The notes below the pieces were generated by a model. It had not been told where the DNA came from, did not search any database, and worked only from the letters and a program-made list of their open reading frames with translations. The position numbers and the translations under genes were made by a program. From Roseimaritima multifibrata (GTDB lineage Bacteria; Planctomycetota; Planctomycetia; Pirellulales; Pirellulaceae), in contig NZ_CP036262.1 in NCBI RefSeq assembly GCF_007741495.1, positions 2,108,001 to 2,172,000 on the forward strand: a stretch of DNA of 64,000 nucleotides, given 5' to 3'. This document shows positions 28,759 to 60,604 of the stretch, piece after piece (the stretch's first letter is position 1; the number at the start of each line of letters is the position of its first letter).

Positions 28759-30219
28759 CTATAAATCGTTGTTCCGCACGTCGGCCAACTTTTCTTTCAT
28801 CCGTTTTTTCATCTCCGCGACCACGTCCGCGTGTTCTGGTGATTTCGCTAGATTCGTGAACTGCTTGGGATCATTGTCCATATCGAACAGCTCGATGCCT
28901 CCGGAAGCGTCTTCTTTGTACTGGATGTAGGACCAGCGGTCGGTCCGCAGCAAGAACCCTTTTCGCATCGGGGCGACGCTAAACGCTGCATCGCGAACTT
29001 GATATTCGGGATTGTCGAACATCGGTGAGATGTCCTTCCCTTGAACATGATTAGGGACCGGTAATCCACAGAGCGACGTGACGGTCGGATAGAGATCAAG
29101 CAATTCGACAAAGCTGTTGCAGACAGCCGGTTTTTTTCCGGGAACACGGATGATCATTGGGACCTGAGCCGATTCATCGCGAAGGGATACCTTTGCCCAG
29201 AAATCGTGCTCGCCAAGATGGTAACCATGGTCGCTGGTGAAGATCACGATCGTGTTGTCCAGTTCTCCCGATTCACGCAGTGCGGTCATTACTTTGCCGA
29301 CTTGAGCGTCCATGAAAGCAACCGAAGCGTAGTAGCCCCCAATCGCTTTGCGCTGTCGTCGTTCGTCCATCTTCATGTTGACACTGGTCTTGTAATTGAT
29401 TCCGGCTTTGGGGGTGTCGTCCCAGTCGCCGGCGACTCGTTCTGGTAATTCCAGTTTGCTGTACGGTTTGAAAGGAGGGAAGTAATTGGCCGGGGCGACA
29501 AACGGGACATGGGGGCGAACGAAGCCGACCCCTAGCCAAAACGGTTGGTCCCGTTTGGTTTCCAGTAGTTCCACCGCTTTGGCGGCCGTCATCCCATCGG
29601 AGTGGACCATGTCGTCCCCATCGGCTTCGACAACAACAAACGTGTTGCCGCCGACGACAGGTCTTTTGCCATCGGGATTTCCCTCCAAAGTTTCCCCGTC
29701 CCCTTTGGCTTTCCATTCGGGGCCCAAGCTATTGAATCGCTCGGTCCATGAATGCACGTCGTCGGCACCATTGCCCCCGTCGTGATCCCGTCCATCGCCC
29801 CCGATAAGAACTCCACCAGGAATCCCCATGTGAAAGATTTTGCTCACGCGAGCGGCGTAGTATCCGTTGTCTTTAAATACCTGTGACCAGGTTTGGCGAT
29901 CGCCGATTTGCGGCCGAGGGTTGGTGTAGCCCAAGACTCCTGTGGCATGGGGATAGTATCCCGACATCAACGATGCGCGAGAGGGGCCGCAGTAGGTGCC
30001 CTGGCAGTAGGCCTGAGTAAAACGTGTCCCTTCCGCAGCCAATGCATCGATGTTTGGCGTTTCGCAGACCGTGTTGCCATAACAGGAAAGGGCCGTCGAG
30101 GTCAGGTCGTCTGAAATGATAAAGAGGACATTCATCGATTCCTTGGCGAGTGCCTGTCCGGCAAACAGGAGGCCAAAAACGCAACTAAACAACATCGTTC
30201 GCATGGTAAAACTCGGCAA
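28759..30219 (-). CDS. Secreted sulfatase, iduronate-2-sulfatase-like
   Basis: 486 residues; a second in-frame ATG five codons in is also possible. The signal peptide ends at GQALAKE (about residue 26). The metal site starts with ISDDLT (D37, D38). The formylglycine motif is C77-GPS-R81, so C77 should be converted by a formylglycine-generating enzyme. Further hallmarks are PHATGVLGY, GVGFVRPHVPFVAP, IVIFTSDHGYHLGEHDFWAKVSL and the C-terminal LFDMDNDPKQFTNLA, all typical of S1 sulfatases of the choline/iduronate type. Planctomycetes encode many such enzymes for sulfated polysaccharides. It stands alone with no linked carbohydrate gene. Confidence 0.95.
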   Translation of the reverse strand: MPSFTMRTMLFSCVFGLLFAGQALAKESMNVLFIISDDLTSTALSCYGNTVCETPNIDALAAEGTRFTQAYCQGTYCGPSRASLMSGYYPHATGVLGYTNPRPQIGDRQTWSQVFKDNGYYAARVSKIFHMGIPGGVLIGGDGRDHDGGNGADDVHSWTERFNSLGPEWKAKGDGETLEGNPDGKRPVVGGNTFVVVEADGDDMVHSDGMTAAKAVELLETKRDQPFWLGVGFVRPHVPFVAPANYFPPFKPYSKLELPERVAGDWDDTPKAGINYKTSVNMKMDERRQRKAIGGYYASVAFMDAQVGKVMTALRESGELDNTIVIFTSDHGYHLGEHDFWAKVSLRDESAQVPMIIRVPGKKPAVCNSFVELLDLYPTVTSLCGLPVPNHVQGKDISPMFDNPEYQVRDAAFSVAPMRKGFLLRTDRWSYIQYKEDASGGIELFDMDNDPKQFTNLAKSPEHADVVAEMKKRMKEKLADVRNNDL

Positions 30220-30414: not shown

Positions 30415-30423
30415 GCGTGGGAC
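30415..30423 (+). repeat. Target-site duplication, left copy (GCGTGGGAC)
   Basis: Identical to 32126-32134; the two copies abut the terminal inverted repeats exactly. Confidence 0.88.
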
Positions 30424-32125
30424 TGGACCGTCAAAAAGAAGGCCGTTTTGGTAAGCACGGTAAAAATTTGGATTGGAAGCTGCTACGAACTTTCGTATTG
30501 GTTGGTTACGAAATCTCCCAAAGCGAAGGAACGCAACAGCGATGGCATTATTCACAAATTCTCTCGGTCAGTACAGCTCATCTCTTTATGAAACCGCACG
30601 CACATTGCTGCGAAGTCGAAATAATCAGGCTGTCAGGGCTGAACGGATCAAACAAGAAAATCGCCAGTTACGAGCTTCTCTTGAGCAGCAGCAGCGATGC
30701 CTCGACCAAGCGAAGCACGATCTGCGAGAGGCTCACGCTGAGATCCAATCACTATGCGAGCAACAGCGGCAATGCCGCAACAGAGTTCCAACGCTTCGGG
30801 GCGATCTACCATTGCCAGGACATCAATACGGTGCTGCGACGATCGCCTTGTGCTTGAACCTTGCTCGTCGTATCGGCTTTCGACCAGCGGTGTCCGCTCT
30901 TCAAATCGTCTTTGAAGCCTTTGGGATCATCAGTAAAATCCCCACGGCAGAAACCATCCGTACATGGGCGTGCCGCGCCGGAGTGGCAGTTCTCGGGGAA
31001 CCTCCGGAGGAGGCTGACGATTGGATCTGGATGGTCGATCACTCCAACCAAGTCGGACAAGAGAAGGTTTTACAGGTACTCGCCATCCGGGCCAAAGATT
31101 TACCGCCGCCGGGTCAAACACTCGCTCGTGAACAACTTCGACCACTGGCCGTTCGCCCGGGAATCCAGTGGAAACGCGACGACATGCGGCAAGTGTATCG
31201 CGAGCTTCAGGCGATCCACGGCACGCCAAAATTCTTGCTTAGCGACGGGGCGGTAGAACTACGTGAGAGTGCGGATGTACTGCAAAACGCAGAAAGATCA
31301 ACCATCGTACTGGGTGATTTCAAGCACTTCGCCGCCAATGCATTGGAGCGAATTTTGAAAAGCAACGATCGCTTCCAAAGCTATCTGAGCTGGTTAGGCC
31401 GCAGTCGCTCTACGGTACAACAGACCGAGCTGTGTCACCTCACACCGCCAACGCTCAAGACCAAGGCTCGCTTCATGAATCTTGGACCAGTTCTGCGTTG
31501 GGGACAGATGTTGTCCTACCAAGCGTCGCATCCGCGGTCGAGGTCTCGGCAAGGTGTCACAGCAAAACGCTTCAATGAAAAATTCGGTTGGATTCGTGGC
31601 TATCGGGAGGACTTGTCGATTTGGAGTCGATGCCAAAGGGTTATTCAGATCGGCCTGCGATTGATCAACCGAGAAGGGCTCGCTCATGGAACAGCGAAGA
31701 AACTTCGCAAGGCGTTTGAAGACGAATGCCAAGATCAGCCAGCATGTGAAGTATGTGACAGATTAATCGAAACGCTCATCGAATTTGTGCTGGCTAACGA
31801 ATCGAAGCTAGCCACGCGAGATCGCGCCTGGTTATCAACCGAAAACATGGAGTCAAGTTTCGGCGCATTTAAACAACTCGAAGGTCAGCAGAGCAAAGGC
31901 GGATTGACCAGTTTGGTATCGGCGATGCCGATGGTGCTTCGTCGCTGGGACGCTTCGTCAGTGCGTACGTGTCTGTCGTCTATTTCAACCAAGCAAATGC
32001 GTGCCTGGGTGGAGGATAATCTTGGTCAGACGCTTAATTCGAAACGACGGATCGCCTTTGCCGAAGCATCCCTGGAATCTCTCGGGTAGTGCAAAATGCA
32101 GCACCAAACCATTTTTGACAGTCCA
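30424..32125 (+). mobile_element. Insertion sequence of 1702 bp with intact ends
   Basis: The left end reads TGGACCGTCAAAAA (30424-30437) and the right end, read inward on the minus strand, TGGACTGTCAAAAA (32125-32112): 13 of 14 bases match. Immediately outside, the 9-mer GCGTGGGAC is present exactly at 30415-30423 and at 32126-32134, as expected for a target-site duplication. The interior is filled by one gene with DDE-type features. Intact ends, an exact duplication and an uninterrupted frame point to recent transposition. The site lies between a sulfatase gene and cca, three bases beyond the cca stop codon. The family is not one I can name. Confidence 0.9.
30542..32089 (+). CDS. Putative DDE transposase of an unassigned family
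   Basis: 515 residues from ATG 30542; a TTG at 30473 would add 23. The first ~110 residues contain a strong coiled coil (RAERIKQENRQLRASLEQQQ onward), typical of multimerisation or DNA-end pairing. A helix-turn-helix-like region follows (IALCLNLARRIGFRPAVSALQ). Candidate catalytic acids are D166 (WMVDHSNQVGQ), D235 (FLLSDGAVELRE) and E434 or E437 (STENMESSFGAFK), in order and each at the end of a predicted strand or start of a helix. About 200 residues separate the second Asp from the Glu, so a large insertion domain is implied. Its position inside matched inverted repeats is the main reason for the call. I cannot assign it to a known IS family. Confidence 0.82.
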   Translation: MALFTNSLGQYSSSLYETARTLLRSRNNQAVRAERIKQENRQLRASLEQQQRCLDQAKHDLREAHAEIQSLCEQQRQCRNRVPTLRGDLPLPGHQYGAATIALCLNLARRIGFRPAVSALQIVFEAFGIISKIPTAETIRTWACRAGVAVLGEPPEEADDWIWMVDHSNQVGQEKVLQVLAIRAKDLPPPGQTLAREQLRPLAVRPGIQWKRDDMRQVYRELQAIHGTPKFLLSDGAVELRESADVLQNAERSTIVLGDFKHFAANALERILKSNDRFQSYLSWLGRSRSTVQQTELCHLTPPTLKTKARFMNLGPVLRWGQMLSYQASHPRSRSRQGVTAKRFNEKFGWIRGYREDLSIWSRCQRVIQIGLRLINREGLAHGTAKKLRKAFEDECQDQPACEVCDRLIETLIEFVLANESKLATRDRAWLSTENMESSFGAFKQLEGQQSKGGLTSLVSAMPMVLRRWDASSVRTCLSSISTKQMRAWVEDNLGQTLNSKRRIAFAEASLESLG

Positions 32126-32134
32126 GCGTGGGAC
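32126..32134 (+). repeat. Target-site duplication, right copy (GCGTGGGAC)
   Basis: Identical to 30415-30423. It ends three bases before the CTA (32138-32140) that is the minus-strand stop codon of cca. Confidence 0.88.
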
Positions 32135-32137
32135 ACC

Positions 32138-33415
32138 CTAGGAAAGGAGCCCCGTCGATCGCATCCACTCGCACGCCGCTTCGGGGGAATTCAGTTCTTC
32201 GTCTAGCTGAGCTGCCCGCACCGCCTGCAAAATTTCGCGAAAACGGGGGCCTGGTCGCAAACCCAATTTCTTCAGCGTTTGCCCGTCGATCAAAGGTGGC
32301 GGGTCCAATTGTTCTTGCGGCCAGGAAAGTCGTTGTTCGACAAACCGTATTCCTTCTCCTTTGATGCCGGATAGTTCGTCCGTTGCCCGCAGGCTTGCCG
32401 CCGCCACTTCCAGGGCTGTCTTGCTGTCGCGATGAACCAGCAGCGGTTGGACGGTCGACCAGGGAAGTTTGTCGGCTTGCGCGAAGTGGGAATAGTTCGA
32501 CGCAGCGAACAGGGCGGCGTCCCGTTCGTGAGTCGACAATTTCCAGGTATGAAACAACTGCTGGATGATGGAGGCTGTCTGGTTTTGGTCGTAGGCATGA
32601 CGATCGGGGATCCCCAGCATTGCAATCGCCGTAGCGGTATCGGGATTGCGGCGGGCCTGTAACCAAGTCAGCCACTCCTGGGAAACTTGCCCGCTGCGTG
32701 CTGCCGTCGGAAGCAGATGGGGGGCGAGTTCCAATTCCTCCAACGCCTTGATCGCATGGTTCGCCCTTGGGCTGGCAAGCATGCGCCGCATTTCGGCTCC
32801 GATACGTTCCCCGCTGACTTGGTCAATTTGCGGCGCAAACTGTCGAACGGCTTGAGCGGTTGCCGGTTGCAAGCGGAATTGCAGCAACGACGCGAAGCGG
32901 ACGGCTCGCAACATTCGTAGTTTGTCTTCTGCGAATCTTTGGTCGGCGTCGCCGATGGCGCGGATCACTTGTTCCTGTAAATCGGCTTGGCCGCCAACAA
33001 AATCGATTACCTTGTCGGCCAGCGGATCATAAAAGATTCCGTTGATCGTAAAGTCGCGGCGAAGGGCATCTTGTTCGGGATCGCCAAAGTGAACGGAATC
33101 TGGGCGTCGGCCATCCGAGTACGTACCGTCGCTGCGGAAGGTTGCGACTTCCACAGGCTGGCAAAGGCTCCCCTTGTCGGGAAGCACATTGATGACCCCA
33201 AAAGAAGCTCCGATCGCTAGGGTTCGTCCTTTACCGAAAATCTTCTGGACGCGAGTGGGCGTAGCATCGGTGGCAATATCAAAGTCTTTGGGATGTATCC
33301 CTAGAAGTGCGTCACGCACGCAGCCGCCAGCAAGGAACGCAGTGTGGCCAGCGGTTGCCAATTTTTCGAGAACTGCAAACGCGTGCGCCGAGGATTCGTC
33401 GCGACGAATAAGCAT
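32138..33415 (-). CDS. cca: CCA tRNA nucleotidyltransferase / poly(A) polymerase family
   Basis: 425 residues. The class II nucleotidyltransferase head shows LAGGCVRDALLG (G30-G31), the metal-binding D44-F-D46, and RRDFTINGIFYDP. The RNA-binding neck and body carry RFAEDKLRMLRAVRFAS and a long helical tail. The enzyme adds CCA to tRNA 3' ends or A-tails to RNA; sequence alone does not decide which. A CCA-adding enzyme is needed here because the tRNA-His gene of this window does not encode CCA. The reading frame is intact although an insertion sequence sits three bases past its stop codon, so any native terminator has been displaced by 1.7 kb. Confidence 0.93.
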   Translation of the reverse strand: MLIRRDESSAHAFAVLEKLATAGHTAFLAGGCVRDALLGIHPKDFDIATDATPTRVQKIFGKGRTLAIGASFGVINVLPDKGSLCQPVEVATFRSDGTYSDGRRPDSVHFGDPEQDALRRDFTINGIFYDPLADKVIDFVGGQADLQEQVIRAIGDADQRFAEDKLRMLRAVRFASLLQFRLQPATAQAVRQFAPQIDQVSGERIGAEMRRMLASPRANHAIKALEELELAPHLLPTAARSGQVSQEWLTWLQARRNPDTATAIAMLGIPDRHAYDQNQTASIIQQLFHTWKLSTHERDAALFAASNYSHFAQADKLPWSTVQPLLVHRDSKTALEVAAASLRATDELSGIKGEGIRFVEQRLSWPQEQLDPPPLIDGQTLKKLGLRPGPRFREILQAVRAAQLDEELNSPEAACEWMRSTGLLS

Positions 33416-60392: not shown

Positions 60393-60466
60393 GTGGGTGT
60401 AGCTCAGTTGGTTAGAGCGTCGGATTGTGATTCCGAATGTCGGGGGTTCGAGTCCCCTCACTCACC
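60393..60466 (+). tRNA. tRNA-His (anticodon GTG)
   Basis: The 74-base cloverleaf folds fully: acceptor GTGGGTG with CACTCAC (one G-U), D stem GCTC/GAGC, anticodon stem TCGGA/TCCGA with loop TTGTGAT (anticodon 60427-60429), and T stem GGGGG/CCCCT around TTCGAGT. The base before it (G60392) can serve as the G-1 that pairs with C73 and is the identity element of histidine tRNA. CCA is not encoded (CTT follows C73), so the 3' end must be added by the nucleotidyltransferase. Confidence 0.97.
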
Positions 60467-60604
60467 CTTGCTTTCTACTATTTAGCAAGCCATCTAGCGG
60501 TGTAACGATGCTGGTGGTTTTTTAGTACGGAAGCGTTGGGTTGGCCGTGGTGGGGTTCGTTGGAATTCTCCCCCGTTTCAGCCGCTGCTCGAGTGGAGGA
60601 TTCA

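Follow-up and report, generated by a model that had tools for sequence, protein, structure and literature searches.

Between two genes of the Roseimaritima multifibrata genome (G000; 7.2 Mb in one contig), within the 64,000-nucleotide stretch of DNA analysed here (the window), lies a long open reading frame enclosed by short inverted repeats and an exact duplication, which raises the questions of whether this locus is a recently moved insertion sequence (IS), to which transposases its protein is related and how its insertion sites are chosen. Both neighbouring genes are on the minus strand; judged by eye, the frame at 28759-30219 is sulfatase-like and that at 32138-33415 is CCA-adding-enzyme-like, three bases separating the stop codon of the latter from the end of the right target duplication. 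Elsewhere in the window, a tRNA-His (GTG) at 60393-60467 is the sole tRNA or Rfam match. The features of the element are the following (TIR, terminal inverted repeat; TSD, target duplication):

30424-32125, plus strand: complete IS of 1702 bp, with a second, 100% identical copy at G000:3186878-3188579
30415-30423, no strand: left copy of the 9-bp TSD, GCGTGGGAC
30424-30437, plus strand: left TIR, TGGACCGTCAAAAA, with the same ends on the second copy and on three MITEs
30479-30540, plus strand: leader hairpin, arranged alike in eight elements of the sub-group; its folding is weak in the window itself
30525-30530, plus strand: Shine-Dalgarno GAAGGA, within the 3' arm of the hairpin
30542-32089, plus strand: transposase gene, 515 aa, ATG start at 30542
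31037-31039, plus strand: codon of D166, putative first catalytic acid, invariant in 13 diverse relatives and on beta-1 of the model
31244-31246, plus strand: codon of D235, putative second catalytic acid, invariant and at the end of beta-4 in the model
31850-31852, plus strand: codon of E437, putative third catalytic acid, in an invariant E437-S438-x-x-G441-x-x-K444
32112-32125, minus strand: right TIR, TGGACTGTCAAAAA (minus-strand reading), matching the left TIR at 13 of 14 positions
32126-32134, no strand: right copy of the 9-bp TSD, GCGTGGGAC

The 14-bp TIRs with their 13/14 match and the identical 9-mer abutting both, as given in a preliminary description made from the letters alone, were confirmed, and the enclosed 515-residue frame is real from its ATG, relatives starting translation at the same place, behind a conserved hairpin that holds the Shine-Dalgarno. 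The recent movement proposed there is borne out by the second copy, which lies on the opposite strand, is identical over all 1702 bp and is bounded by its own 9-bp TSD, GGCTGGGGG. This was the one further near-identical copy found by the genome search. The expectation of several copies thus held in that further copies exist, but their number is modest: besides the two full copies there are a single fragment and three MITEs. The fragment is a decayed left end (169 bp, 92%; G000:68705-68871; L003), which adjoins a tandem array with a unit of ~42 bp, TTCCGTCGGAGCGTTTGGCCCTGTGTGCACTGTCCCCGCAAGAG. The MITEs, found by a TIR search, are each 181 bp long (G000:135674-135854, 3168401-3168581 and 5306117-5306297) and combine the ends of the IS and 9-bp duplications with interiors unrelated to it. 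A scan of 60 relatives for an empty site found no homologous intergenic stretch, so that the evidence of insertion comes instead from the TSDs and the second copy.

The protein was modelled with AlphaFold2 from six sequences at moderate confidence (pLDDT 71, pTM 0.60), the model being poor after E437. Its N-terminal part consists of a long helix (14-79) followed by helices at 98-145, and its core runs strand-strand-strand-helix-strand-helix-strand, after which come an insertion of helices at about 314-420 and a further helix from 434 to 446. The best PDB matches in Foldseek were Hermes (E 3e-5), the P element (5e-5) and the IS256-type ISCth4 (1e-4), all RNase H-like with helical insertions, in agreement with the RNase H-like core that was looked for in the structure prediction. 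The predicted domain layout is therefore an N-terminal, orfA-like coiled coil, HTH-like helices and an RNase H-like DDE domain carrying a helical insertion. Across a set of 13 diverse sequences, the relatives in which share 17-46% identity with the window protein, D166, D235, D259, H262, E437, S438, G441 and K444 are among the residues that do not vary. Both aspartates first put forward as candidate acids thus proved invariant, as did one of the two glutamates offered for the third place, E437; E434 was rejected, since position 434 varies in this set. The catalytic set can be taken to be D166-D235-E437, with the spacing of ~200 residues between the second and third acids noted earlier and the helical insertion within it.

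The preliminary description could assign the protein to no named IS family, and library searches concur: Pfam, NCBIfam, PHROG and PADLOC models and PDB sequences returned nothing past coiled-coil noise or chance matches. Transposase_mut (IS256/Mutator) was matched neither by the window protein nor by five close members with E values up to 10 allowed, nor by any of the 13 diverse members with E up to 1, and there was no ISNCY model match. The Pfam or NCBIfam transposase models for ISL3, IS66, IS4, IS5, IS1 and IS3 did not reach cut-off in the members scanned, the best sub-threshold family match being NF033579 (IS5), for which one relative from Persicobacter scored 32.5 bits (cut-off 140). It could nevertheless be that the protein is a strongly diverged member of a named family with the same fold (IS256, ISL3 or IS66), or that it is already in ISfinder, for example under ISNCY. 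ISCth4 is among the best fold matches, D259-x-x-H262 resembles the D-x-F-H motif of ISL3/MULE-type enzymes, the HTH region of the Persicobacter relative weakly matches IS5/IS6 models (E 6e-8, below cut-off), and the ISNCY group ISMae2 makes 9-bp duplications. Against such an affiliation, which we regard as possible and rather doubtful, no transposase model of Pfam or NCBIfam reaches cut-off in any member scanned, and every annotated plasmid relative is labelled "hypothetical protein", as was anticipated for such proteins, implying that NCBI's own transposase models miss them. The identical copy with its own TSD, the RNase H-like model, the invariant D-D-E and the lack of library matches together support an intact, recently moved IS whose DDE transposase stands outside the named families.

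Relatives are known from Planctomycetota, Cyanobacteria, Gammaproteobacteria and Bacteroidota, with similar ends and, in most, 9-bp TSDs. Five planctomycete relatives share 39-46% identity with the window protein (GTDB contigs), and tblastn on plasmids recovered others at 21-26% in Nostoc, Calothrix, Gloeothece, Thiodictyon and Persicobacter. A broader alignment (A3) gave positives in 29 of the 398 genomes surveyed from the planctomycete class, against three among 392 spread evenly over the phylum; three candidates were scored per genome in both surveys, so that copy numbers from them are minima. Three planctomycete loci (L007, L008 and L010) appear, from their equal lengths, to be the contigs of the matches in G752, G765 and G700 and are thus not independent of them. 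Phage records contained no relative, and neither did a first IMG/VR scan with a narrow alignment; two IMG/VR contigs filed as viral (L106 and L107) do carry family members, each a full one with the TIR TAGGGTGTCAAAAATTT, the TSD TCACTATGT and a common insertion site.

The ends of the relatives read TRGR[C/G]TG... or nearly so (TGGCCTGATGAAAC, TGGGCTGCGCGAAATC, TAGGCTGTTGACTTTG, TAGGGTGTTCAA, TAGGCTGATCGGAAG and TAGGGTGTCAAAAATTT). Matching 9-bp TSDs bound the elements in L008, G373, L018, L019, L023, L026, L027, G405, G491 and L106, as well as three copies in G646; copies that lack a matching TSD come mostly from draft contigs, among them several relatives in draft genomes (L007, L009, L010, L111, L116, L117 and L119). 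The Persicobacter plasmids (L024 and L025) carry multicopy relatives with good ends, TAGCCTGTCGAAAATTC, and no matching TSD. On the Thiodictyon plasmid pTs485 (L020:947-3206), a relative is nested inside another element of ~300 bp, which has the ends CAGGGCAATCGCATCAAG and a 10-bp duplication, GCGGCCTGCC. The flanks in L009 and L010 are inverted rather than direct. A different insertion mode, suspected at first, was set aside, as such flanks are expected when two copies lying inverted in the same repeat recombine; mis-joining of contigs is a further possibility. Of 15 distinct TSD forms, 13 start with G and 11 finish with C; a strict GRYNNNRYC consensus for all TSDs was dropped because the inner positions vary.

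In many relatives the gene is split into a coiled-coil orfA and a DDE orfB. The cyanobacterial elements have an orfA of ~82 aa that overlaps orfB and begins, with FKSP...coiled-coil, as do the close relatives of the window protein; in three of them (L018, L023 and L026) the heptamer A-AAA-AAG stands in the orfA phase and permits a -1 shift into orfB, and in L027 an A9 stands at another offset. Overlaps with assorted offsets also occur in G373, G766, G646, G491 and L106. The gene of the window sub-group is a natural fusion of orfA and orfB, which suggests that the fused protein may be the active form. Eight elements of this sub-group have a hairpin in the 60 nt preceding the start codon, with GAAGGA in its 3' arm about 11 nt upstream of that codon. 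Its folding z-scores range from -2.2 to -5.5 in seven elements, that of the window being weak (-1.3), and changes in the stem are partly compensated (CTGTTGCG/CGCAACAG in L007, CTGCTACG/CGCAGCAG in L116 and CGGTTGCG/CGCAACCA in L108). In other ISs, leader hairpins mask translation of read-through transcripts, and a similar role is likely for this one.

The choice of target is clearest in the relative of G373, which is present in 18 identical copies of 1706 bp. All 18 lie inside AGGC-NNN-GCCT (AGGCNNNGCCT); 16 have the identical 9-bp TSD GGCNNNGCC, and the other two look recombinant. This core is usually the centre of a longer palindrome with outer arms, GTTCCCAGGCTCCGCCTGGGAAC, present about 115 times. 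A marker for it, CCAGGCNNNGCCTGGG, has 115 matches on one strand and 118 on the other, most sites being counted once from each strand, against 0/0 for the reversed control, and AGGCTCYGCCT has 194 matches against 14 for its control. The palindrome also occurs at about 42 places in G750, where the survey with the A3 alignment detected no element, so that the palindrome is not a product of the element. Such specificity might be only apparent if a non-selective transposase left copies that survive in harmless intergenic repeats; the repeats are intergenic by nature, and the window copy lies outside the common repeat of its own genome. Yet selection against gene disruption is unable to pick a single nucleotide, whereas each of the 18 identical copies occupies one and the same nucleotide of the 11-bp core, and the second copy and the MITEs of G000 at a single nucleotide of a ~390-bp repeat, so that survival at harmless sites is a very improbable account. 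This 18/18 pattern cannot arise from selection for harmless sites, and the simplest cause of fixed-nucleotide insertion is that the transpososome recognises its target.

The transpososome could also recognise an extruded cruciform or hairpin rather than a sequence. At 11 of the 18 G373 sites the arms GTTCCCA...TGGGAAC show perfect complementarity at all 11 positions scored, with the cut straddling the centre, and at one further site there is a single mismatch; moreover, a G405 copy splits the palindrome CCCTCCCGGAGGGAGGG at its centre, its target CCCT-CCCGGAGGG-AGGG being likewise palindromic. Several G373 sites, however, have badly broken outer arms while AGGC...GCCT is intact in all, and the target of the second G000 copy, GGCTGGGGG, is not a palindrome. 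For these two reasons recognition of the sequence is favoured, and a cruciform target appears unlikely. In G646, two of the three copies use one 9-mer in opposite orientations (GGGTGCCCC and GGGGCACCC).

In G000 itself, the targeted repeat is marked by GGGGGAGAGGGNNNGGG, with 56 and 49 matches against 0 and 3 for the control. The marked repeat is part of a dispersed unit of ~390 bp, with roughly 100 marker matches, that ends in inverted repeats of 26 bp, TGAAGAAAGTCTGGCTCCCCTCGCCC, and has an inner inverted pair of G-rich arms separated by ~124 bp (examples at G000 C1:326860-327001, 831018-831158 and 3186859, and L036-L045). The second copy and all three MITEs occupy one nucleotide position of this unit. 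Because the repeats surrounding the MITEs are alike for ~390 bp, the three may not be independent insertions, as the repeat could have spread carrying a MITE; the second copy is an insertion event separate from them. The window copy lies outside the ~100-copy repeat, and its target, AGGGGGGAGCGTGGGAC, merely resembles it. Insertion into dispersed extragenic palindromes is thus seen in G373 and, in G000, for the second copy and the MITEs, not for the window copy.

The sequences themselves demonstrate the 9-bp duplication, the existence of several identical copies, MITEs that share the ends of the IS and fixed-position insertion in dispersed host repeats, and the identical copies with separate TSDs would attest catalysis and transposition indirectly. 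The explanation as a whole, that is, an autonomous IS with the fold, D-D-E and target recognition described, whose transposase family is absent from the available curated libraries, is very probably correct. The N-terminal part of the transposase, with its HTH-like helices and coiled coil, would bind the ~14-bp TRGR(C/G)TG... ends, the coiled coil being predicted to serve oligomerisation, and the RNase H-like D166-D235-E437 site with its helical insertion would join the ends to staggered 9-bp cuts. The transposase itself may recognise a short core in host repeats, AGGC-N3-GCCT in the one relative and GGCTGGGGG within GGGGGAGAGGGGCTGGGGGAGAGG in G000. Low synthesis of the enzyme would be ensured in the window sub-group by the Shine-Dalgarno-covering hairpin, which would form on read-through transcripts, and in relatives with split genes by a -1 frameshift from orfA into orfB. 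On balance, and with appreciable reserve, we favour the broader reading of a separate DDE family, spread over at least four phyla and absent from curated libraries, in which protein-DNA recognition directs insertion into host-specific palindromic repeats, either precisely at their centre or at a single fixed position, sub-groups being matched to different repeat families.

Recognising these elements fills a gap in transposase annotation, as a relative could be detected in about 7% of the genomes sampled from the planctomycete class, and plasmid-borne members from Cyanobacteria, Gammaproteobacteria and Bacteroidota are annotated as hypothetical. It also ties the spread of an IS to planctomycete repeat families that are themselves poorly understood. 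A transposase that consists of a single protein and selects an 11-bp palindromic core at 18 of 18 sites would offer a compact model of DDE target selection, and the family offers natural transposase-target pairs for testing the determinants of choice.

Among known systems, the general marks of a DDE-type IS are present here, namely TIRs with a TSD and a predicted RNase H-like fold with three invariant acids. IS256/Mutator-like elements, hAT elements (Hermes) and the P element likewise have an RNase H-like DDE core in which a helical insertion separates the second D from the E, and make 8-9-bp target duplications; the window element has the combination of 8-9-bp TSD and helical insertion expected of IS256. 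It differs from all three in its ends, in matching neither Transposase_mut nor any other DDE model and in its coiled-coil N-terminus, which in many relatives is a separate orfA. IS10 and IS50 of the IS4 family share the 9-bp duplication and a partly symmetric target preference, but no DDE_Tnp_1-type match reaches cut-off here, and the predicted insertion is helical rather than made of beta-strands. IS3 and IS1, like relatives of the window element, have a short orfA overlapping orfB, with A-AAA-AAG in the three cyanobacterial cases; by contrast, no rve or IS1 model matches here, the DDE spacing is ~200 residues with a helical insertion, and the window element has no separate frameshift.

IS1202 and other ISNCY members resemble the element in being unclassified ISs, 1.5-1.7 kb long, that encode a large DDE transposase. 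IS1202-family TSDs are 3-5, >15 or 0 bp long, and ISAjo2-type ends read TGT...ACA (PMC10132070), whereas the window element has a 9-bp TSD, TRGR ends and no ISNCY model match. A functional parallel lies in the REP-targeting elements IS621, IS1397, ISPpu9/10, ISPa11 and ISRm22, which belong to the IS110, IS3 and IS4 families and insert at a fixed position in dispersed extragenic palindromes, REP-directed insertion being known in members of the IS3, IS110, IS4, IS256 and IS5 families (PMC1525189). The present family shares fixed-position insertion into such palindromes, but the library searches show no relationship of its transposase to theirs, and the 9 bp that it duplicates lie at the centre of the palindrome. 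What is new relative to known REP-directed ISs is the transposase family together with the exact central 9-bp duplication.
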